Virus record (IMG/VR): IMGVR_UViG_3300037264_000624
Location: 1-36,972 of that record
Length of the DNA: 36,972 nt
Source of the DNA: a virus
Strand: one strand, 5' to 3'
Position 1 is the stretch's first letter, and the number at the start of each line of letters is the position of its first letter. Both the position numbers and the translations under genes were made by a program. Shown here in pieces: positions 2,562 through 36,971 of this stretch. The notes beneath the pieces were generated by a model. It was not told where the DNA came from. It made no database searches and worked only from the letters and a program-made list of their open reading frames with translations.

Positions 2562-5500
2562 CAGTGCTCCCACTCGTCCGGGATGATTCCTTCGTAACCA
2601 GCCAACTTGGCCAAGTCACCCTGGACTTCTGGGGATTCCTCGATTGCTGGTGTGGCTCCAGGTTTCGGTACATTCTCTCCAAGTTTCAATCCAGCCTCGT
2701 CTACGAACGGGCTGATACCTGCTGCTTTCCCACCCACCTGCTTGGGGCAGATGACCGTGAGATTCATGGCTGCTCGGGTGAGAGCCACATAACCCAAACG
2801 ACGCTCCGACTCCATCTCCTCGGCAGCGACTTCTGGATCAGGAGGCGGTTGACCAGGCTTCACAGGCGGCGTGAAAGGGAACTTGCCTCTGGGCATGGAA
2901 ACGTAGCAATTCTTCCACTGTGCGCCTTTTACGCTATGGACCGTTCCAAGGTAGGTTCCAGGAGGCGGCTTCCTCTGCTCAGGGGGTAGGGTTGCTTGCT
3001 CCTTATCCCACTTGGTGATGTCGATCCGAAGCTCACGGGCTCGCTGACCGTATCGCTCCATCTTGGCTTTGAAGCCTGTTGGAGTGTTGGGATCCGTGAG
3101 AAGATCCCCAGGATCCGTCGGATCTTTCTTGACCAACTCGTAGAGGAAGCTGATGTTCCCGAGCCCCTCGGTATCGTCCTCGTCCTCGGTGTCGTCATCC
3201 TCCGAAACACTATCTCGGAGGTCTGCCTTGAGGCTGTCCCGGAAAGTCTGCTCAACAAACTGCGCTCGACCTGTTCGAGGATCCATGACGGCCACAGTGC
3301 CCGTCATCCCAAGGATCTCATCGAACAGATCCTTGGTCGTGTACTCAGGATTCTCCGAGTTCGCCTGCATTGTCCCCAGACCATGCTGGATATCCTCCAA
3401 CTTCTCGATGGCCTTCTGGAACTTGAATCCAGCTCGAACTCTGGTGAGCTTCTCGGCGAGCACCGATTGAAAGAAGGGATCTCCCAGGGCGACCAAGGGA
3501 TTCACCGTCTTGATGTCTTGACCGTTCCGCTTGGCGTAGGCCGAAAGGGCATCACTCACAGCCGTAGCTCCAGCCTCCGGAGCTACGAAGAAGCGGTTGG
3601 GCTTGTTGATGACCTCCCCAAGAGCTGCTTGCATCTTGGCGAAATCATCTCCAGTCGCAAGCTGAACGTAGCTGAGGAATGCCTTGGTCTCGGGTGAACC
3701 CAGAAACGAAGAGGCTCCCTTTCGAGCGTAGGGAACCCCACGAATGATGCACGCCGTTTCGAAAGCGTGCTGCTCCTTGTTTGTCCGAGTGAGGATGGCA
3801 TTGTCAGCCACATCTCCGCCAGCCTCGATGTTAGACTTGATCTCCTCGACAACACTCAAGGCAGCTTCGGCCTCGTCCCCAGGACTCCGAACTCGAACAG
3901 AACCGACTCCACGAACCTTGGCCGGCGAAGGAACGGCTTCCATCGGGAGTCGTCCCTCATTGTGAGAGATGAGCTTGTTGGCGGCATCGACGATCTCCGG
4001 CTGACACCGATAGTTCGTCCGAATCGTCCTGACTTTCCAATCCTCTTTTTGAGCCCTGCCCAAGAAGATATCCGGACGTGCTCCTCGGAATGTGTAGATA
4101 CTCTGATTCGGATCTCCCACCATCCAAACGGACTTACCGTCGGAGCCATCTTTAATGTGCTCTGACATCATCTCTACGATGTCGTTCTGACATTGATTCA
4201 GGTCTTGGCAGTTATGGCTCAGGACGCCATTCCCAAAGAAATTGCCAGAATCCTCTACGGTGATGTCATAAAACACTCCCCCAGCTTCCGGGACGATTGC
4301 GACAATCTCTCCAAGGACGATCTTTGAATCATCCAAGGGTTTTAGATCAATGTGAGTAGCCTGCAAATGTGCTTGACGGATAGCCTCATACACGGAGCCA
4401 TGGACACAGCCTTTGGCTGGCACAGGTATCCTATACTTATCAGCTAGTTCACGAATCTCTCGGCCTCGCATGAAAGCTATTACTGATTCAGTGTTATCCT
4501 GCCCGGATACCCAGATCGGGACGGACATACCAACTCTGAGGGAACCAGCATTGGTGAGTAAACACGATTGGTCTTGGACTAAGATATCCTCGACAACATA
4601 GGCTTCTATAGACTTGGCTAAAGCCAAAGCAGCTTTACGGACGCCAACATAAGTCGTATCTGAAATGTGGACAGTTTTCCTGAGTCCACCCTGAGTGTCA
4701 TAAACCTTGTAGTTAGCCGGAATCATCGGCTCGTTATCCCCAGGAGACCAAGACATCCCAGCCGTAGTCCGGCGTCCGTTAGACCTATGCCCACTCATTC
4801 CCCCAGATCGATGGGCTGATATAGAAACTACTTTACGATCAGGGCTGCTCGTGCTGACCCAATGGGGATACTCCTTGCTGAGTCCGTATAGCTCTAGAAG
4901 TTTCGCCCCGTTCTGACCGTATTTTGCAAAAATCCTATCGGATCTATTCTGATCACATAGTCGGACTTCTGCTTCAAATAGCCGAGCAGGAATCTGGTAG
5001 TCTAGTGAATAGTCCAGCTCTCTGAAAAGAATCTCAGATGCCTCTCCGGTTTCCAGAACCCACATACAGTCAGCTTTTTCAGCCCCCGCACGATGCGAGC
5101 GATACTTCACATCGTGTGTAGACCGTTGAATGAGGTAAGGAATGGATGAGACTCCAATGCGGAATCCCATGTCGTGACGATACATGAGGTAGAGTGCTAA
5201 CTCCCCTTCCGGTATCTCCGGGTCGAATTGGGTGGCGTAAAGACGATGATCCAGAGTCATCGTCAGGCTATGTCCTGATTTGGTATGGATAGTGACTCCA
5301 GATGTTTTCCCGCTCAGTTTCTTAGCTAGAACGCTCTTAAATACAGCAGATCCGTTCTGGTAACTTAGGATTTTATCCCCTGTCTCAAGCTCAGAAACTT
5401 TTTTACTCTCCCCTGTCTCCAACAGTACCTCTGTATCCTCATGCACACACTCATCGACCAAAATGTGATCGAACATCCCTTGCAAGGTCTTTCGGACCAT

Positions 5501-7737: not shown

Positions 7738-8105
7738 TCGAGCCGACCTACCATCCCATCTGGACCAAAAGGGCCAAGTCCCTTCAAGCCTGGTTGCGTA
7801 AGAACGGCCCTCAACCCACTGATCAAATGACGGAATGGGCCAGGACCGTAAAGTTGACACCGACCGTCGTCACCAACGTCCTGGCGTACGCAGACGGTGT
7901 CTACATTCAGCACTACAGGAAAATGTGGTGGGCCGCTCCCATCGAGCCAAGCGAGGTCAACAGGAAGGTGTGGACGGCTGAAGCCCACTCACCTGAGGGA
8001 TGTCTGGCTGAATCCGAATCAACCTCGGACGAAGATCCTGTATCAGAGCCAGGTTTACCAGTCCTGGTCGAGCATCCATCCGACAAATCTCATCTACCAA
8101 CGTAA
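7734..8105 (+). CDS. Small unknown protein, coupled to the J-domain gene
   Basis: This 123-residue frame starts at ATG 7734, overlapping the J-domain stop as ATGA, so it is probably translationally coupled. The first 75 residues look folded, with a helix-turn-helix-like stretch QMTEWARTVKLTPTVVTNVLAYADG. The remainder is acidic, Ser/Glu-rich and probably disordered. Its last 149 bases overlap the minus-strand HTH gene (7957-8463) tail to tail, so its C-terminus or that of its neighbour may be only loosely constrained. I do not recognise a family. Confidence 0.62.
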   Translation: MIEPTYHPIWTKRAKSLQAWLRKNGPQPTDQMTEWARTVKLTPTVVTNVLAYADGVYIQHYRKMWWAAPIEPSEVNRKVWTAEAHSPEGCLAESESTSDEDPVSEPGLPVLVEHPSDKSHLPT

Positions 8106-8463
8106 CCCACATGTCTCTCGGTATAGGTGTCGTTCCGACTTCCCACGCCTGAATGTCCGGTACCGTGACCCCAAGAAATGTCGCGGCATCAGCCTCAGTC
8201 ATCTGCAAGGCTAGCCGGATGAACTGGAAGAATTGGCTGTGGACCATCCCGAAACGGCCCAACGTCGAAGCCGCCCGGACGTAGCAAGCATCCTGGTCAG
8301 CCTGAGCAAAGACTGTGGGGCCGGCCGCCGAGGAGATCCCTTGAAGGGAGGCCACAAACTTGATGCCAGTTGTTCCGACAGGCATCAAGAAATCCCCCAC
8401 GATTGGGATCCCAGCCCGAACCGGATAGATGACTGTCCCAGGGGGCTTAGGCAGAACTGACAT
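7957..8463 (-). CDS. HTH-containing phage protein
   Basis: This 168-residue protein starts at ATG 8463, 17 bases inside the end of the capsid-like gene. Residues 1-75 (PGTVIYPVRAGIPIVGDF) look beta-rich. Residues about 79-130 match an XRE-like helix-turn-helix: FIRLALQMTEADAATFLGV followed by DIQAWEVGTTPIP, where the WE-G pattern is typical of that fold. It may be a regulator or a small virion-associated protein carrying an HTH; position in a virion gene block leaves both open. The tail overlaps the plus-strand 123-residue gene. Confidence 0.75.
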   Translation of the reverse strand: MSVLPKPPGTVIYPVRAGIPIVGDFLMPVGTTGIKFVASLQGISSAAGPTVFAQADQDACYVRAASTLGRFGMVHSQFFQFIRLALQMTEADAATFLGVTVPDIQAWEVGTTPIPRDMWVTLVDEICRMDARPGLVNLALIQDLRPRLIRIQPDIPQVSGLQPSTPSC

Positions 8464-9166
8464 CTACCAGATCGAGATCCACAAGAGCTTCCCAAATTGA
8501 ACGGTTGTTTCTGCTAGAAGACTGCGGAATCGGACGGGGAATCGGGGGCAACTTAGCTCGAATCACAGCGTCCAGAATGCGCTGGACGGCAGGTTCTAGC
8601 CCACCTCGGTCAATGAGGTTAAAACGTCTCGATCGAATCTCGTTGATGTTGATCATGGGACTTGATTGGATCTCAAACTCTGGGAATTGGACTCGTCCAG
8701 GGCTGGGAACATCGAGTCTCCCGACACCTCTCGGATTGACCAGGAAGCAGCCGGGATGGGTGTGGACCGTGAAGGCACCAGGTAGCCCCTCTACCTGGAG
8801 TTGGTCTCCAGGTAAGATCCCACTCTCTACAAAGTCTCTGGGCACTGTGACTGGGAGGATCTGAATTTGTTCAGAAGGGTCGTACAGAGCTAAGATGTCT
8901 TCGTATTCCTGACGAGAAAGCATCGGAGCCAAAGATCGAAGTCCCTGTCGGTCGATCTGGTTGAAGACTTCTCGGAGACTCTCTAGAGTCAACCCGGATC
9001 CATCTTCAACTCCACCTGTAGAGTAGGTGGGAGCTGCCTCATCAAGTAACTCCAGGATGCGGCGGTCTTCTTCCTCCTGGATCTCTTGAACCGCTCGGGC
9101 GAGCCGATAGGTGTACGGAGGATCCTCTAAGACCAGACCGGGCGTTCTGGTGGGTGGAGGAGGCAT
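8447..9166 (-). CDS. HK97-type capsid-related protein, apparently circularly permuted
   Basis: This 239-residue protein shows similarity to the major capsid protein encoded at 36090-36971, but in swapped order. Its residues 20-92 (LARAVQEIQEEEDRRILELL, then LREVFNQIDRQGLRS and QEYEDIL) match capsid residues 119-196. Its residues 127-187 (LPGAFTVHTHPGCF, then FPEFEIQSSP and RSRRFNLIDR) match capsid residues 54-117. In the best segment (161-187 against 91-117) I count 15 identities in 27. The last 35 residues look like a disordered Pro/Ser tail plus a short helix. It could be a minor capsid, vertex or decoration protein. The start at 9166 is supported by the proline-rich MPPPPTR leader, but the ribosome site is not strong. 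Confidence 0.72.
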   Translation of the reverse strand: MPPPPTRTPGLVLEDPPYTYRLARAVQEIQEEEDRRILELLDEAAPTYSTGGVEDGSGLTLESLREVFNQIDRQGLRSLAPMLSRQEYEDILALYDPSEQIQILPVTVPRDFVESGILPGDQLQVEGLPGAFTVHTHPGCFLVNPRGVGRLDVPSPGRVQFPEFEIQSSPMININEIRSRRFNLIDRGGLEPAVQRILDAVIRAKLPPIPRPIPQSSSRNNRSIWEALVDLDLVDVSSA

Positions 9167-9177
9167 AGGACTCTAGG

Positions 9178-10428
9178 CTACACCAAAACGCCGAGAGTTT
9201 GAAGCCTGGTACGAAGGTGAGCTGGATCAGCGTAAGATTCGTCCTCGCGAACTGACAGAAGCCGTAGCACTGGATCAGCCTCGATGAGTGCTCGCTTGAG
9301 CTGATCTCGCTCTTGAAGGGCTTGGAACTGTGTGAAGTCCTCGATGTACGTGCTCGGAAAGGTCCAGTGTTGATAGCCGTGGAACTCCACCAGCAAATTC
9401 TGGGATGGGAAGAAACCGTCAAACCGAAAACGACGCCCAGTGCTAGGGTTAGTGAACCGAGCATCGTTCCACTCGGTATCGTATACGGCACACCCAAGGA
9501 CTTGGGAGATGGTTTCAAGACAAATGGCCTGAAGTACCGCCGTGTTCGAGATGATGAGCCCATGCTTCTCACACTCCCGACGAATCGTCACGAAGGCATG
9601 ACCCAACGCCACAATCGCCCGGCCTACAGAAATTTTGCCGTTCTTGAGGGCAAAGGGAAGAAGCTGTTCCTTGGTGAGGGTGATCTCGGTGCCATTGGTC
9701 CAATGCTTGATAGCCCTGACCTCCTTCATATTTTCGGCTCGAAAATTCACCATCGAGTGACTTTCTTTCGTGTGCCCTTTCGACCACTCGGTCCTTCCCA
9801 TCAATTTTTCCGAGATTTGGGCCACACGCTCGTCCGTTGCCTTCGTCAATCCGGCATTCCAGCGGCCAGCATTGGCGGACATCTTGACCTTGGTCTCCTC
9901 CGAAAGAGGCTTCCCCTTGAGAGCTGTTTTGTCTCGCACGGCCGAGTTGTCCGCAACCACTTGGTCAGGATAGCCACCAACCCACTCGGGATGGGCGTTC
10001 TGGATATGACTTGTCAAGTTCTCGGCCCGATAACCACAACCCTCACAGATCACATAGTCGAGTCTCTCAGTCTTAGATGCCCACATGGCATCTTCATCCT
10101 TCGTTCGGCACTCAGCACACCGAGCATCATGGACCGAGTAGGCGAACGTGAACCCAACTTCTCGGGGCTCTCCACAAGAAGGGCATGTGATCAGCTTCTT
10201 GAGCCCCTTCCGAGGACTCTCCGTATGCTTCTTCTTAGCAGCCCCCTGACGCTTCTCAGTCAGGGACTCGCATCGGATGAGCGTCCCCGGGTACTTTTCT
10301 CTGTAAGCGTCTGCCGTGAGACCGTGCTTACGGAGATGGGTGGCAAGAGTGGTTGTTCGAAATGCACAGACCCGACAGGTCACGAAGTCCTGCGGCTCAC
10401 TTTTTCCGGCCCAAATGTCTGACACCAT
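9178..10428 (-). CDS. Free-standing homing endonuclease, zinc fingers plus EDxHD/Vsr-like nuclease
   Basis: This 416-residue protein has a C2H2 finger (C18, C21, H31, H35) in a MucR-like context (HLRKHGLTADAYREKYPG), a Cys4 ribbon (C82, C85, C104, C107) and a second C2H2-type finger (C128, C131, H141, H145). Residues 172-220 carry a NUMOD3-like DNA-binding repeat (GKPLSEETKVKMSANAGRW). Residues 333-354 hold the nuclease signature RFRFDGFF...LVEFHGYQHW, with D337, E348 and Q353-H354 as likely catalytic residues of the PD-(D/E)XK EDxHD group related to Vsr. Such proteins nick or cut specific sites and spread their own genes. It lies between the sheath and capsid-like genes. Its start codon is inside a perfect hairpin, suggesting tight translational control. 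Confidence 0.85.
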   Translation of the reverse strand: MVSDIWAGKSEPQDFVTCRVCAFRTTTLATHLRKHGLTADAYREKYPGTLIRCESLTEKRQGAAKKKHTESPRKGLKKLITCPSCGEPREVGFTFAYSVHDARCAECRTKDEDAMWASKTERLDYVICEGCGYRAENLTSHIQNAHPEWVGGYPDQVVADNSAVRDKTALKGKPLSEETKVKMSANAGRWNAGLTKATDERVAQISEKLMGRTEWSKGHTKESHSMVNFRAENMKEVRAIKHWTNGTEITLTKEQLLPFALKNGKISVGRAIVALGHAFVTIRRECEKHGLIISNTAVLQAICLETISQVLGCAVYDTEWNDARFTNPSTGRRFRFDGFFPSQNLLVEFHGYQHWTFPSTYIEDFTQFQALQERDQLKRALIEADPVLRLLSVREDESYADPAHLRTRLQTLGVLV

Positions 10429-10514: not shown

Positions 10515-13500
10515 TTAAATCCGAGCCCTGACGTTGAATGTCAAAATCAAGTACAAGAGCGGGAAGATCGGCTGGTAGAAGGCCGAGAACCGAAGGATGG
10601 TCGGATCATCCGGATCCACCTCGGCAGCGATGCCCGTGTAGGCCGCCACGATCTCGGCCTGGACGAGCTGGTTGAACAGCGAGGTCATCGTGACCTCTAC
10701 CTCATTCGTACGGGATGCCAAGAACTTGGTCCCAACGAACGCATCGAGAACGATGCGGCTCTGCTGCTGCACGAAGTCCGCGATCTGGGTGACCGTCGGG
10801 AGACGGGTCAGAACCGAAGACATGTCCGTGGTGAGGCCCTGGCGAACCCGGATGATGGGGTCCAAGTCTTCCAGGAGCGTGATACCTGCCACTGCCGTCT
10901 GGTTGGCCTCCACCGGGTCCAGAATCCTTGGGATCCGAGTGAAGCCCTGGAGGCGACGACGAGTGTACGGAGTCGCTACGTCCACCGCTGGGCTCACAAC
11001 AGCACCCGCCAAGGCCGCAGCCATGAAAGTACCATCCACGAGCTGCTCGAAGCTCTCACCCAGCTCGTTGTTGAGCGTGATGACCGCCGAATCCGGATAG
11101 ACAGCGATCATGCGATTCGAAAGCAGAGCCTTGGCAATGGTTTGGGCATTCGTCGGGCTGGTGCCAGAAGCAAACCCGATGAAGCCGAGACGCTCCGACT
11201 GATTCCGGATGTTGCTCTGCGTCTCAACGTGCTGGAGCAGGTAGTTGTAGACCTGAGTGCTCGTCGAAAGCGGAACCATGATGTCCGGCTTAACCTGTCC
11301 CGGCAACGGAATCGCAAGCTCCTGGATAGCCGCAATGAAATCGGCATCCGAAGCCTGGTTCGTGTTCGGGACCTTCAAGACCTGCTTGATGCCAACCAGG
11401 ACAGCTCCGTTGAGGATGGCCAAGTAGGCAGCCAAACTGACCCGGTTCTCGGCAGCAAGAGGACCGAAGTTCGCCTCGATGGTCTTGAACTGCTGGTAGA
11501 GACCTGCCGAGAAGTCCTGCTTCTGGAAGAAGTAGGTGATGTAGTAAAAGTCGCCGATTGCCGGTTCCAAACCACCTGGGTTGAACGTCCGAATCGTTGC
11601 CGTATCGTTGACTCCAACATTCACCGTGTCAGTCACGATGGTCTCGGTACCTGGGATTGACAGGTACGGAACCGCAGGATTCACGTTCCAGGTCGTGGAC
11701 ACGAACATCGTGAAGAAGCCACCCGGGGTATAGCTCCCCGTCGAGGCTGACAAGATGGTGAATCGAAGACCCGTAGTAGCATCCGTGTAAGTCTGGCCAG
11801 GAGCACCTGTGCCTCCAGAACCCGACGGGTGAGATGAAGTGACCGTGAAGCTGTCACGGGAATCCTCACCATTGTCTCCGGAAGTACCGGGAGTGACTCC
11901 GGTGCCCGCTGTCTCGTTGAAGGCACTGGCTGTACCCGTGGCGAAAGCCACAGAAGACGTTGCAGCACCCGTCGTTAGAGACTCGATGGTGACATAAGTC
12001 GAACCTTCGATGTCACTAGTGTAGGCCACACCATCCGTGAGGAACAATACCGTGTCGTCCAGAGCATTGACCACCTCTTGGGCCGAGACGTTCGTGGACC
12101 CAGCCGAGTCTCCCTCGGTGAGACCAAGAACGACCAAGGAGTTCGAGGTTAGAATGCCAATCCCCGAGGCCGCATCTGTCGTCGGGCTGGTGAGCCTCAA
12201 CTTGTTCAAGTTTACCAAAGTGCCCGCAGAGGCCACACCAGCAAGACCAGGAACAAGGTTGATGGCCGCTGCCACCGCAGCCGTGGTTACAGCCGGACCC
12301 GTGGGGAGCGAGATCACATAGTCGATCCCATCCACCCGGATGTTCAGCTCATCTGTGACACCAGCATCAATCGCGAACGGACCCACAAGCGAACCTAAGA
12401 TGGTTGCTGGCTTGTTGAGAGCATTCGGGCTACCTGATGCAGCCTGGAACGTGGCGTACCCAAGAACAGTCTCCAGTGTCCCCTGGCGAATGCTGACTGC
12501 CGAGGCATGGTCGAAACCACCAGGAAGAGCCGCCGGAGTCGAGTAACTCCGAATTAGGAAGAGCACATCCGTTGGAGCAGCGCCAATCTGAACGAAACTC
12601 GCCAGATTGTTGGGAGCGGTACCAATGAATGGAGCCGCAGCGTCAATGGCAGTATTGATATCTGCTACGATCTGGGTTGGCGTTCGGAGGCCAACCGTGA
12701 CAGCCACCGTCACATCAGTACCGTCGATGGTCAACTCCAGGACGTTGTTCGGAGATGCCGGAATGGTGATCTGTGTGGCACCGCTGACGGCGACATGATC
12801 ACTCACAAGGTAACCTCGCCGAGCCGTATTGAGGTTCGTCGTGTAGGTCGTACCGTCCAGCACCGTCCTCCACGTAGCCGAGAAAGTAGTGAAGAACGAG
12901 TACGGTTCGGCACCTTCGATCGTGTAGGCCGCGTTCAGAGCAGCATCCGTGGCGAACGTGACCGTGACTACCTCATCTACCGGTGTCCCTGCTCCCGTAT
13001 GGAAGGCATCGGGCACTTGCTCGACACCACGAGGCCACTGAATGATCTCCGCAAGACCCGTCTTCACACCGAACCGAACCTGCCGATGATTCGACTGGGT
13101 AGCTGTCGAGAAGACCTCGAATTGACCGAAGCCCACCGCACCCGCCACCTTGTTGGTCAAGATGTAGGTATCATCGACGATCCGGTTGTACCAGAAAGTA
13201 CAGAATGCGCTGTGATCTGGCGGGACCGGAGTCTTGAGCGTGAGGATTCTCGTCGAGGAATCCACCGCCACAACTTCGACCGCAGAACGGCCAAGAGCAT
13301 CCCGGAGATCTCGACCTGTGTAAACCACCACCAAGTCTGGACGATCGGTACTGAGACCAATACGCTGGTTGGTAATGGCCAAATAGGTGGACTGTCCAAG
13401 AGGCGTATCTCGACCGTTGCCTGTCGTAGGCACGGCTGGGAGAATGAACTTGGTCGTTGAAACAATGGCCGGAACGACAGTTGTGTCTACGTACCGAGTT

Positions 13501-14789
13501 GCCTCAGTGAGGTACAACTTGTCATCCACCAAAGTCGGAAGGATCTGGGTGTCATCGAACACCTCGGCCCCAGGAGACCGCAGAGTAGATGCTACCGAGA
13601 CACTGGTTCCCCAGTGAACGATGGAGACATCCGGGCTAGGGTTTGAAATGACGAAATCCTGGTCCTGGATGAAGTCCGACCGACCCGCAGCAAAACCACT
13701 TCGGAGGACCGAAGTGACCTGGGTATTCGGCAGATAGTCGAACGTGTCCTGCCAGGTGTTGAAGTAGTATTGGATCGTGACCGTGCTACCCGGGGCCGGA
13801 GCCGAAGGCAGTGTCACAACACCATTCGTCCCATCCACAGCCGTCGGGATAACTTGGACCCCGTTGACTTTGGCAACAACCTTGGACGGATCCGTAGTGG
13901 TGATACCACCATCGGTACCATCCACGATAGGACGCTGGAAAACTCGGAAGTCCACATTCCGAGCTGTCGAAGTGTTGGGGGCGAACCCAAGAGCGCCGTT
14001 GGCATTCCCCAAACCAATCACGAGCGAGCTGGCCGAGAAGAGTCGAACATGCTCACGGCCCTGGTTGTCCGTGAAGACCAGCGTCGAAAGACCTGAAATC
14101 AAGGCCGCATCGATGAGGGCCTTCATGGCCGTGGCCGAGTAGCCACCTGACGGGCTAGCAGCAAACACGATGGTAGTCTCAGCACCATCCACCGTGAGGG
14201 TGAAGGTGTCGGTGGTCCCGGCCGTGATGGTGAAAGGACCATAGGCCGGAGTCGTCAGAACAGCTTGGGTTCCAGTCACCTGTTCGGAAACATCATCCGT
14301 GATAATCGTATCCGAACGGTGGAAGTAGTATGTGCAACGGACATCATCCTCGGGCTGTGCTGGTACCTGAAGGATGACGTAACCATTGGCACCTTGAACA
14401 CCGCCCACGGCTACAGGAGAACCATTGATCGTAACCGAAACCGAACGAGCATCGTTAGTGACCCGGCCGAAACCCTGGCCATCCACGATGGGGTAGTTGC
14501 GGACCCGGAACTTCGTCAGGAGGCCGTTTGCGGCTCCCAAGATGGGATTCGCCGGATTCGTGTCATCGACAACGAACCGCTGGCTGTCATCCTCACGAAC
14601 GATCTGCTGGTCCAGGTTCGAACTTGAACCACGCACCATTTCCAGGTCGTACTGCGCAAGTTCTTCCTGGCCAACACCAATGACGAACGGGATCCGAAGA
14701 CCAGCGACCAAATTGGCCACGTTCGCCTGAGTGAGGGTACGAGTGTAAATTCCCGGGGGAACATAGGTGACGAAGGGGCCCAACGCCAT
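10515..14789 (-). CDS. Tail sheath protein, unusually long
   Basis: The N-terminus (PFVTYVPPGIYTRT) and the C-terminal 340 residues are sheath-like: NRVSLAAYLAILNGAVLVGI, RLQGFTRIPRILDPVEANQ and a DAFVGTKF...VEVTMTSLFNQL end region. The product polymerises around the tail tube and contracts on infection. At 1424 residues it is about twice the 659 of T4 gp18. The extra length is in residues about 90-1080, made of beta modules: a PIVDG...NG..V...YYF module at 94-160 and 281-346, and an I.AG.TD.....VDG module at about 184-275, 673-770 and 803-895. It starts at ATG 14789 with only a modest ribosome site. No obvious tail tube gene follows directly, where an endonuclease gene sits instead. Confidence 0.93.
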   Translation of the reverse strand: MALGPFVTYVPPGIYTRTLTQANVANLVAGLRIPFVIGVGQEELAQYDLEMVRGSSSNLDQQIVREDDSQRFVVDDTNPANPILGAANGLLTKFRVRNYPIVDGQGFGRVTNDARSVSVTINGSPVAVGGVQGANGYVILQVPAQPEDDVRCTYYFHRSDTIITDDVSEQVTGTQAVLTTPAYGPFTITAGTTDTFTLTVDGAETTIVFAASPSGGYSATAMKALIDAALISGLSTLVFTDNQGREHVRLFSASSLVIGLGNANGALGFAPNTSTARNVDFRVFQRPIVDGTDGGITTTDPSKVVAKVNGVQVIPTAVDGTNGVVTLPSAPAPGSTVTIQYYFNTWQDTFDYLPNTQVTSVLRSGFAAGRSDFIQDQDFVISNPSPDVSIVHWGTSVSVASTLRSPGAEVFDDTQILPTLVDDKLYLTEATRYVDTTVVPAIVSTTKFILPAVPTTGNGRDTPLGQSTYLAITNQRIGLSTDRPDLVVVYTGRDLRDALGRSAVEVVAVDSSTRILTLKTPVPPDHSAFCTFWYNRIVDDTYILTNKVAGAVGFGQFEVFSTATQSNHRQVRFGVKTGLAEIIQWPRGVEQVPDAFHTGAGTPVDEVVTVTFATDAALNAAYTIEGAEPYSFFTTFSATWRTVLDGTTYTTNLNTARRGYLVSDHVAVSGATQITIPASPNNVLELTIDGTDVTVAVTVGLRTPTQIVADINTAIDAAAPFIGTAPNNLASFVQIGAAPTDVLFLIRSYSTPAALPGGFDHASAVSIRQGTLETVLGYATFQAASGSPNALNKPATILGSLVGPFAIDAGVTDELNIRVDGIDYVISLPTGPAVTTAAVAAAINLVPGLAGVASAGTLVNLNKLRLTSPTTDAASGIGILTSNSLVVLGLTEGDSAGSTNVSAQEVVNALDDTVLFLTDGVAYTSDIEGSTYVTIESLTTGAATSSVAFATGTASAFNETAGTGVTPGTSGDNGEDSRDSFTVTSSHPSGSGGTGAPGQTYTDATTGLRFTILSASTGSYTPGGFFTMFVSTTWNVNPAVPYLSIPGTETIVTDTVNVGVNDTATIRTFNPGGLEPAIGDFYYITYFFQKQDFSAGLYQQFKTIEANFGPLAAENRVSLAAYLAILNGAVLVGIKQVLKVPNTNQASDADFIAAIQELAIPLPGQVKPDIMVPLSTSTQVYNYLLQHVETQSNIRNQSERLGFIGFASGTSPTNAQTIAKALLSNRMIAVYPDSAVITLNNELGESFEQLVDGTFMAAALAGAVVSPAVDVATPYTRRRLQGFTRIPRILDPVEANQTAVAGITLLEDLDPIIRVRQGLTTDMSSVLTRLPTVTQIADFVQQQSRIVLDAFVGTKFLASRTNEVEVTMTSLFNQLVQAEIVAAYTGIAAEVDPDDPTILRFSAFYQPIFPLLYLILTFNVRARI

Positions 14790-34876: not shown

Positions 34877-35059
34877 TCAAAACAATGGTCGCTTGCAAGT
34901 AGGACATTTTGGGATTGGCTTTTTCTGATGGAGCTTACAGTAGCCGTCTAAAACAGCCATGTTCTTACATCTGCCTGGGAACCATCTGTCCTTCCGCTGA
35001 GCTTTGCAGCGGGCTTTCTCATGGCCTGGGTTGAGCCACCATCGGCCCTTACGAGTCAT
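34877..35059 (-). CDS. Small Cys/His zinc-binding protein
   Basis: A 60-residue basic protein whose ATG overlaps the endonuclease stop as ATGA. Cysteines and a histidine are arranged as ARCKAQRKDRWFPGRCKNMA, then DGYCKLH and a final CPTCKRPLF. The C...C...C..H pattern is typical of small phage zinc-finger proteins of the CxA...G.RCKN...GYC..H kind. Trp-rich N-terminus. It may bind nucleic acid; function unknown. Confidence 0.76.
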   Translation of the reverse strand: MTRKGRWWLNPGHEKARCKAQRKDRWFPGRCKNMAVLDGYCKLHQKKPIPKCPTCKRPLF

Positions 35060-35985
35060 GTAACGGGTCTCCCTACCAGTCGGGGGTGATCAATCCCGTA
35101 TCGTTTGAGGAACCGATCCACCGTTGTGGGTGCCTCACCAAGCATCTTAGCCATACGTCGAATGGGGATTCCTTGTGAGGCCATCTCTCTCAGGATCTTC
35201 TCCGAAAGCTTCTGTCGAAGCTGGTATTGAGGTCCCAGAAATCCAAACTCCAGCTTGTGGATCATGCAGGCCGGCATGTGTGGACGAACCAGTGAGATGA
35301 AGCGTTCGGCTTGATCTTCACCATCGAGGATAAACTGGCCAGTCTTCCCTTGGCACAAAGTCCACCTCGGTTCGAACCTGAACTTTTCGAAGATGGCTAA
35401 AGCAATGCCCCTACTGGCCAGGTCCATTCCGAAGGTAAATACAGGCCACCATTGAGCTGAACCATCGTCCATGAACCAGATAGCTAGGGCGAGAGGGTCT
35501 ACGAGGTCCACTACCTTTTCCTGAAGCCTTTTGGGACCGGGCTCAGGATAAAACAGAGCATGCCAATGGATCAAGGTGGCATGAGAAACAGTCTCAAATC
35601 TCCACCCAGGGAATTCCCGCCACTGTGTCGGGCTGATCGGAGTCTTTACCCAAGATCCCCACTCAGAGGCTTTCCACAGAAGGTAGGTCTTCTGCGCATC
35701 CGAATGATTCTCCATGTAACGGGCCACGTGAATGCTCTTGGAGAGTCTACCGTCCCCAAGCATGGATCCCACTAGAACTGACTGTAGTCGGCCCTCTATG
35801 GGGAGTACCTCGTGGCGTTCTGTTCGACAGATGGTCTCTATCCCAAAGCGACGTCTCCAAGACCTCACCCGTTTGACAGTTGCTTCCCCTCTGAGCCTCA
35901 AGACAATCTGCTCATCTGTGAGTAAGTCCTCAGCGTAAAGCCGTCGAAGATCCTCCTGGGAGATAGGACACGGTACAGCCTTCAT
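35056..35985 (-). CDS. LAGLIDADG homing endonuclease, free-standing
   Basis: A 309-residue protein from ATG 35985 with AGGAG seven bases upstream. Two LAGLIDADG motifs are visible: LVGSMLGDG (residues 71-79, D78) and AIWFMDDGS (about 168-176). Surrounding sequence (ENHSDAQKTYLLWK, WHALFYPEPGPKR) fits the single-chain family. Residues 1-50 (SQEDLRRLYAEDLLTDEQIV) and 262-305 (ILREMASQGIPIRRMAKMLG) look like helix-turn-helix DNA-binding parts. The enzyme would cut a specific site and copy its gene into it. It sits between the capsid terminator and a small gene, overlapping the latter by ATGA. No intron is visible around it, since the capsid gene is intact. Confidence 0.9.
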   Translation of the reverse strand: MKAVPCPISQEDLRRLYAEDLLTDEQIVLRLRGEATVKRVRSWRRRFGIETICRTERHEVLPIEGRLQSVLVGSMLGDGRLSKSIHVARYMENHSDAQKTYLLWKASEWGSWVKTPISPTQWREFPGWRFETVSHATLIHWHALFYPEPGPKRLQEKVVDLVDPLALAIWFMDDGSAQWWPVFTFGMDLASRGIALAIFEKFRFEPRWTLCQGKTGQFILDGEDQAERFISLVRPHMPACMIHKLEFGFLGPQYQLRQKLSEKILREMASQGIPIRRMAKMLGEAPTTVDRFLKRYGIDHPRLVGRPVT

Positions 35986-36089: not shown

Positions 36090-36971
36090 TCAGAAGCGAG
36101 TGATGACGAGGCGAGTCAACCCGCGAGGGTTGAAGGCGCCTATGCCGATGTTTTCGAAACAGGAGAAACCAATCGTACGAGCCTTCGGGTCGTCCGCCGA
36201 GAGAACGGTCAGCTCGGTACGGACTGGGAAGCGGCCGAAGTTCTCCGGCTCTGCACAGACATACACGTAGCCGGCTGGAACCAGACGGCTGGTGATGATC
36301 TGAGCACCCCAGAGGGTGGCCTGGAGACCAGTCTTCAGGAGGGTGGCCTGAGACTCGATATCCAGGATGTCCCGACCGAACTTCCGGATGTCAGCGTAGT
36401 CAACCGCATTCATGTAGATGCGGGCAACACGCAGGTCGTGACGCTCGACCTCAGCAAAAGCATCCGCAAGGACGCTCGGGCTGATTGGAGCAACCACGGC
36501 GATGTCCGGGTTGGTCTGACCAGGGAGGGTGTCGAAGCCCGAGACTGCGATGCTGTCGAGAACAGCAAACACACGCTCGTCTTCTGCGGCCTGAATCTGA
36601 GCCTTCGCAAGATCCTGCGAACGCTCAATCAGGTCGAACCGACGCTCCTTGATCTGGGTGAGCGGGATCTCCGGGTTCGAGGCAATCTCGAACAGCGGGA
36701 AGATCACACGCCTCGGCTTCTGGATGGCGAGGATGTTTTCACCCTCTTCACCAACCACGAATGCCGTGACTTCCGGATCCTTGTCGTAGATCGGAAGGGC
36801 TCCGTCGGGAAGCTGCTCGACCAAGAAGGTCTTGCGACCCACGGCCGTGTAGTCTCGACGGAGACGTAAGGGCTGGATCATCGAGGCTGCGAGCTTGGCT
36901 CGGCCGGCAGCGGTACGGATGTACTCACTGATGATCTGCTGCTTGATCTCGTTTGAAACCTGGTTGTTCAT
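36090..36971 (-). CDS. Major capsid protein, HK97 fold
   Basis: A 293-residue protein; the ATG at 36971 is one base from the window edge, so the ribosome site is not visible. Features typical of HK97-type capsid proteins in phages with this architecture: RRVIFPLFEIASNPEI, TQIKERRFDLIERSQD, the A-domain helix QAAEDERVFAVLDSIAV, the MNAVDYADIRKFGRDILD segment, LWGAQIITSRLVPAGYVYV and a terminal FENIGIGAFNPRGLTRLVI. It assembles the head shell. It lacks a long N-terminal delta domain, so a separate scaffold is likely. A permuted relative is encoded at 8447-9166. Confidence 0.9.
   Translation of the reverse strand: MNNQVSNEIKQQIISEYIRTAAGRAKLAASMIQPLRLRRDYTAVGRKTFLVEQLPDGALPIYDKDPEVTAFVVGEEGENILAIQKPRRVIFPLFEIASNPEIPLTQIKERRFDLIERSQDLAKAQIQAAEDERVFAVLDSIAVSGFDTLPGQTNPDIAVVAPISPSVLADAFAEVERHDLRVARIYMNAVDYADIRKFGRDILDIESQATLLKTGLQATLWGAQIITSRLVPAGYVYVCAEPENFGRFPVRTELTVLSADDPKARTIGFSCFENIGIGAFNPRGLTRLVITRF

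Follow-up and report, generated by a model that had tools for sequence, protein, structure and literature searches.

A 239-residue protein of a huge phage is nearly certainly derived from the major capsid protein (MCP), of which it carries two pieces joined in swapped order. It comes from a 36,972-base IMG/VR virus record, called the window herein. The protein is encoded at positions 8447–9166 on the minus strand, represents a conserved family rather than an accident, and belongs to a group of accessory proteins of these huge phages, each of which contains at least one short MCP piece. As far as function can be inferred from sequence, this mosaic protein may act as a soluble capsid mimic against capsid-sensing immunity, a tentative reading to which we give somewhat less than an even chance.

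Gene order and neighbors of the mosaic gene

The MCP gene is followed by tail/neck-type genes, the tail sheath gene, an HNH-type endonuclease gene, and the mosaic open reading frame (ORF), all on the minus strand. The MCP (293 amino acids, 36090–36971, minus strand) shows 84% identity to its counterpart in the 485-kb phage LR745208, 48% to that of Tunturi_5, and 38.5% to gp27 of Bacillus phage G (PDB 6wkk). The tail sheath (1424 amino acids, 10515–14789, minus strand) matches the protein annotated as tail sheath in Tunturi_5, and the mosaic gene occupies a variable slot after it. Between the two lies the HNH-type endonuclease gene (9178–10428, minus strand), which is missing from the corresponding place in the closest relative, L087. 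On its other side, the mosaic gene overlaps by 17 bases with the gene of a 168-residue protein (7957–8463, minus strand), which has an equivalent neighbor in L087 and contains an HTH resembling Aca2/YdiL at 16.4 bits, below the cut-off of 23.8 bits. Pfam gave no match above cut-off for ten neighbor genes from the post-sheath slot.

Two further features of the window may be mentioned. A LAGLIDADG endonuclease (35056–35985) is encoded directly downstream of the MCP gene, with a relative at the equivalent place in L048. The helicase (1504 amino acids) contains an in-frame insertion of ~412 residues (residues 544–955, window positions 4211–5446), which is not found in the relatives G004 and G043 and is probably an intein.

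Architecture of the mosaic protein

The mosaic protein starts with an N module (residues 24–92; 8891–9097, minus strand) that resembles MCP residues 120–195, meaning the spine helix and the first α/β part of the A-domain. The alignment then defines a linker (residues 93–137; 8756–8890, minus strand) that differs greatly between family members and is of Gly/Thr-rich low complexity in some homologs, namely the L119-type proteins. The C module (residues 103–187; 8606–8860, minus strand) resembles MCP residues 32–117, leading from the N-arm through the E-loop to the start of the spine helix, and its match is strongest in residues 138–188. The C-terminal tail (residues 188–239; 8450–8605, minus strand) comprises a remnant second spine helix (188–205) and finishes with a conserved W-E-x-L-V motif. 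A sorting tag in the form of a W-x-x-L tail shared at the C terminus was considered and rejected, because such tails are not enriched (8 versus 5.5, 7 versus 3.2, and 13 versus 11 expected).

In Smith–Waterman comparisons with 1000 shuffles, mosaic residues 103–187 align with MCP residues 32–117 with 33 identities in 89 columns (score 110, p ~5e-10), and residues 25–91 align with MCP residues 122–195 with a score of 58 (p ~6e-4). Significance is thus high for the C-terminal piece and, taken on its own, moderate for the N-terminal piece. The latter is secured by profiles: a profile of seven homologs finds both halves, significant and swapped, in the phage G MCP (i-E 6e-8 and, for the N-terminal piece, 7e-7), and the NCBIfam HK97-fold MCP model NF042927 matches residues 24–92 with E = 1.6e-7, albeit with 30.5 bits where the cut-off is 80. 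BLASTP between mosaic and MCP recovers both pieces, again non-collinear (E = 1e-10 and 0.001), and the MCP profile places them at residues 24–92 (hmm 120–195) and 138–188 (hmm 67–117). Two stretches are likewise matched by PHROG 2522, "major head protein" (E = 2e-11), and by the solved phage G MCP (6wkk) when compared with the mosaic family profile (E = 7.5e-16). A sequence-only reading had already described swapped halves related to the MCP, which the Smith–Waterman, BLASTP, PHROG 2522, NCBIfam, and phage G profile comparisons bear out; its 27-residue block, FPEFEIQSSPMININEIRSRRFNLIDR against FPLFEIASNPEIPLTQIKERRFDLIER, contains 15 identities on recount, as it had claimed.

An incomplete capsid fold

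The same reading took the protein for a circular permutation of the MCP, a capsid-fold subunit with a possible vertex, portal-adjacent, or decoy role. A vertex or portal-adjacent role found no support, nor did the permutation. Only ~55% of the MCP is represented, and neither the first ~30 MCP residues nor MCP residues 197–293, which form the remaining A-domain and the final P-domain strands, have a counterpart in the mosaic. Of the elements of a full HK97-fold MCP (N-arm, E-loop, spine helix, whole A-domain, and P-domain strands), the set is incomplete. In addition, profile comparison extends the second MCP piece beyond its E-loop part and into the terminal portion of the spine helix, and the spine helix is therefore apparently present twice. 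The mosaic fits a head-to-tail arrangement of two overlapping MCP fragments better than it fits a circular permutation.

A true circularly permuted HK97 subunit, be it at the vertex, next to the portal, or as a minor component of the shell, would account for two MCP halves that are swapped and both significant. It is, however, highly improbable given the missing elements, the variable linker, and the seemingly duplicated spine helix, on which grounds an intact subunit was rejected; moreover, Zhang et al. (PMC3863775) argue for two feasible topologies only, and the mosaic order corresponds to neither.

Structure prediction for the mosaic yielded a pLDDT of 48 and a pTM of 0.18, with the MCP itself at equal depth (seven rows) reaching a pLDDT of 33 and a pTM of 0.28. 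A Foldseek search with the low-confidence mosaic model gave no PDB match, at a depth at which the MCP itself was modeled even worse. Helices are predicted at residues 18–42, 61–73, and 85–94 and then at 174–183 and 192–205 of the mosaic, and at residues 104–142, 165–177, and 192–203 of the likewise low-confidence MCP model; this predicted secondary structure follows the swapped order and lends it weak support.

Spread and selection of the mosaic family

Seven other huge-phage contigs, from different metagenomes, encode homologs of the mosaic protein after the tail sheath, giving eight contigs with the window. These are L087 (67% identical), L089, L088, L119, L121, L125, and L111, all with the gene at most ~3 kb downstream of the sheath. 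They were found where the sheath is at least ~80% identical, that is, in a narrow subclade; in more distant relatives, the post-sheath slot contains other small genes and no mosaic homolog. Between the window and L087, dN/dS is 0.25, with values of 0.21–0.26 for every module, and the mosaic protein is under purifying selection. For L119/L125, dN/dS is 0.82, and the homolog L125 looks partly degraded. The mosaic gene and the MCP gene show no significant similarity at the DNA level, which led us to reject a recent duplication of the MCP gene at that level. With no DNA similarity remaining and the frames open, the mosaic gene is therefore old yet intact.

These data bear on the view that such genes are by-products of recombination, wherein homing endonucleases in accessory slots and adjacent to the MCP gene would drive illegitimate copying of MCP pieces, and some of the resulting open frames would drift without function. 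The LAGLIDADG gene directly after the MCP gene and the varied endonuclease-like genes of the post-sheath slot are in line with this view, as are the degraded appearance of L125 and the very short or stop-containing MCP fragments found in some cases. It is nevertheless unlikely, since the window protein shows a dN/dS of 0.25, the frames are open in all eight contigs, the gene is old yet intact, and the Acb2–MCP fusions described below persist at ≤36% identity.

Dispersed fragments of the major capsid protein

An MCP search of 50 related records revealed, apart from the MCP itself and the window mosaic family, at least 16 further stop-free ORFs with MCP pieces in 11 records (E < 1e-4). The pieces vary among these ORFs (MCP residues 3–76, 41–73 at 76% identity, 52–100, 86–118, and 160–254) and are embedded in otherwise unrelated proteins of ~60 to 373 amino acids. 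Sampling is uneven across the records, and a second batch, mostly of shorter contigs, contributed few new cases. One 360-residue protein (G012:219548–220630; L180:1049–2131) is permuted as well, with a spine helix piece at residues 172–200 followed by an E-loop piece at residues 252–285 (i-E 1.8e-4 and 5.5e-11 with the MCP profile). G047 encodes a protein whose paralog lacks the MCP fragment appended to it; in the same genome, a DNA methylase gene and an ADP-ribosylglycohydrolase gene flank an MCP-fragment gene. In the cultured phage Tunturi_5, the MCP-fragment gene gp172 lies among replication genes and not head genes.

Portal, helicase, sheath, and TerL (4218 amino acids in all) served as control queries against the same records with the same settings. 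The portal query (612 amino acids) revealed no dispersed fragment in those records and the helicase query (1504 amino acids) none at E < 1e-4. TerL gave a few domain-size copies, and the sheath matches were limited to a few segments common to other long tail proteins. That all conserved genes leave fragments was rejected, because none of these four shows a comparable scatter. When all called genes were ranked by their dispersed fragment partners within each genome, the MCP came joint first in G012 and G047, two of the three genomes compared. As no other protein is conserved as well as the MCP, some detection bias remains, yet such bias does not easily account for zero versus sixteen.

Several other features were noted in these records. 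G047 encodes a copy of only the ATPase domain of TerL (318783–319814; L234:6783–7814; 343 amino acids), which lies between two MCP-fragment genes (312934–313602 and 322987–323631). In two small proteins (L048:18419–18847, minus strand, and L174:917–1525), an MCP N-arm-like piece and a piece like MCP residues 41–75 are separated by inserted Cys motifs that resemble a zinc ribbon. By eye, MCP E-loop pieces stand behind a Tat-like signal (RRxF/RRQFF) in L176:1435–2103 (G047) and L184:1431–1724 (Tunturi_5 gp172). A motif of ~24–30 residues, like LRKHLVPLLRKHA and mostly near the N terminus, is common to otherwise different proteins of G047 (511180–511851, 213608–214117, 158035–158490, 114744–115304, and 385163–385582). 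Finally, a 236-residue protein (G012:206187–206897) looks by eye like a very diverged collinear MCP that the MCP profile does not detect.

Fusions with the Acb2/Tad1 hairpin

Some members of the class combine MCP pieces with the Acb2/Tad1 hairpin (PF24729), a module of counter-defence against CBASS and Thoeris. In L170 (G011:173875–174783; L170:1376–2284), the hairpin (E = 7e-13) is followed by two copies of the MCP A-domain, an arrangement shared by its ortholog L171 of G015 (hairpin E = 3e-11); herein, the copies correspond to about MCP residues 160–254. L255 (G020; L255:1195–1713), a divergent relative of these two, consists of the hairpin and a single copy of MCP residues 181–255 (score 77, reached by 0 of 2000 shuffles). 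L172 (G033) is related to L170 across hairpin and fragment, although Pfam does not call its hairpin. Within the 50 records, the hairpin scores above cut-off at four places only: the L170, L171, and L255 fusions and a stand-alone ORF ~1.5 kb from an MCP gene. In other phages, hairpin matches are mostly confined to ~70 residues. The fusions probably form one family and therefore constitute one strong association and not several independent ones. In the window mosaic protein, a Pfam scan revealed no hairpin, and its link to Acb2 is only by class membership.

A putative role in counter-defence

The MCP directly triggers Thoeris (ThsB1/ThsB2), from which mutations in the E-loop and P-loop escape (PMC11312562), and it is a documented trigger of CapRel (PMC9712102); escape from CBASS by capsid mutations is cited in PMC11312562. 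The MCP-fragment proteins may accordingly be regarded as putative counter-defence factors that would present capsid surfaces (E-loop, spine helix, and A-domain) without building a capsid. They could occupy MCP-recognizing host sensors of the Thoeris, CBASS, or CapRel type without triggering them, or they could bind newly made MCP and mask its sensed form until assembly. Where one protein joins a sponge for the signal to part of the trigger, counter-defence is the simplest reading. It is possible, although we would not rely on it, that the clade keeps a repertoire of shuffled pieces of its own capsid, some of them bearing a nucleotide sponge, which would serve as decoys or masks to counter capsid sensing. 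The window protein, whose role is extended from that of its class, would be the late-operon form of such a strategy.

Several points count against the mimic reading. Sau-Thoeris appears to sense the MCP hexamer and not fragments (PMC11312562), and capsid fragments could activate a sensor instead of blocking it. The window gene lies in a structural operon and is presumably expressed late, and the high dN/dS of L119/L125 and the appearance of L125 also speak against it. The lack of an Acb2 domain in the window protein, the likely single-family origin of the Acb2 fusions, and the uneven sampling of MCP fragments weaken it as well.

Its main rivals are a capsid-associated role and functionless recombination products, the latter opposed by dN/dS and conservation. 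In the former, the MCP pieces would dock onto the MCP via the E-loop or strand exchange and serve a minor capsid, assembly, or cargo-anchoring role, and any accessory domain fused to them, Acb2 for instance, would travel in the head. The mosaic gene is indeed next to the sheath in a structural cluster, the G011 Acb2 fusion likewise lies between MCP and sheath, and the E-loop and N-arm are the parts of the HK97 fold that touch neighbors. We consider such a role doubtful, though worth keeping in mind, because the MCP parts differ from protein to protein instead of forming one docking tag, many fragment genes are far from structural genes (including the one among the Tunturi_5 replication genes), and the mosaic gene is confined to its narrow subclade, unlike core virion genes. 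Similarly to animal Gag-derived restriction factors, a fragment might also co-assemble with and block the capsid of co-infecting relatives or satellites, given that fragments could bind MCP in trans and that the MCP is ~90% or more identical over much of the clade. This is improbable, as the phage's own capsid would be poisoned too, there is no sign of a distinction between self and non-self, and the Acb2 fusions would be left unexplained.

Several bacterial immune systems recognize the capsid protein, which is hard for phages to change. If the mimic reading is true, soluble pieces of the own capsid, some with an immune-signal sponge, would be a direct way around capsid sensing and would represent a counter-defence class in which the virus mimics that protein of its own which is sensed; their sequence signature could be used to find new sensors and counter-defence genes. 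Even without that function, one essential gene repeatedly copied piecewise across giant-phage genomes needs explaining.

Comparison with known systems

Vertex paralogs of the T4 gp24 type are also derived from the MCP and thus provide a second MCP-derived gene per phage genome; unlike the mosaic, gp24 is collinear and full-length and its gene adjoins that of the MCP. Family 4 "A-domain" encapsulins are cellular proteins in which the HK97 fold is likewise cut to a part, but this part is one contiguous domain with no swapped order. The family as such is listed in PMC8346489. While MCP paralogs, truncated HK97 proteins, and a permuted HK97 topology (BPP-1, PMC3863775) are already known, the dispersed MCP-fragment phenomenon is apparently undescribed so far, and the open-access literature that was searched yielded no report of capsid-fragment decoys, dispersed MCP-fragment proteins, or an Acb2/Tad1–MCP fusion.

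The Acb2/Tad1 nucleotide sponges (PF24729) are linked to the class by the three relatives that carry the hairpin fused to MCP A-domain pieces; the known proteins bind signaling nucleotides, whereas the window protein is devoid of the hairpin. The MCPs of BPP-1 and Epsilon15, with their non-circularly permuted HK97 topology (PMC3863775), share with the mosaic a rearranged order of elements. However, in BPP-1 none of the three elements is lost, the N-element leads, and the protein forms the shell, whereas the mosaic lacks elements, has its N-element piece at the end, and coexists with a normal MCP. A further counterpart is the MCP of Bacillus phage G, gp27 (PDB 6wkk; PHROG 2522), which represents the sequence source of both modules: it is a complete and collinear capsid protein, and the window protein is a swapped and truncated mosaic.
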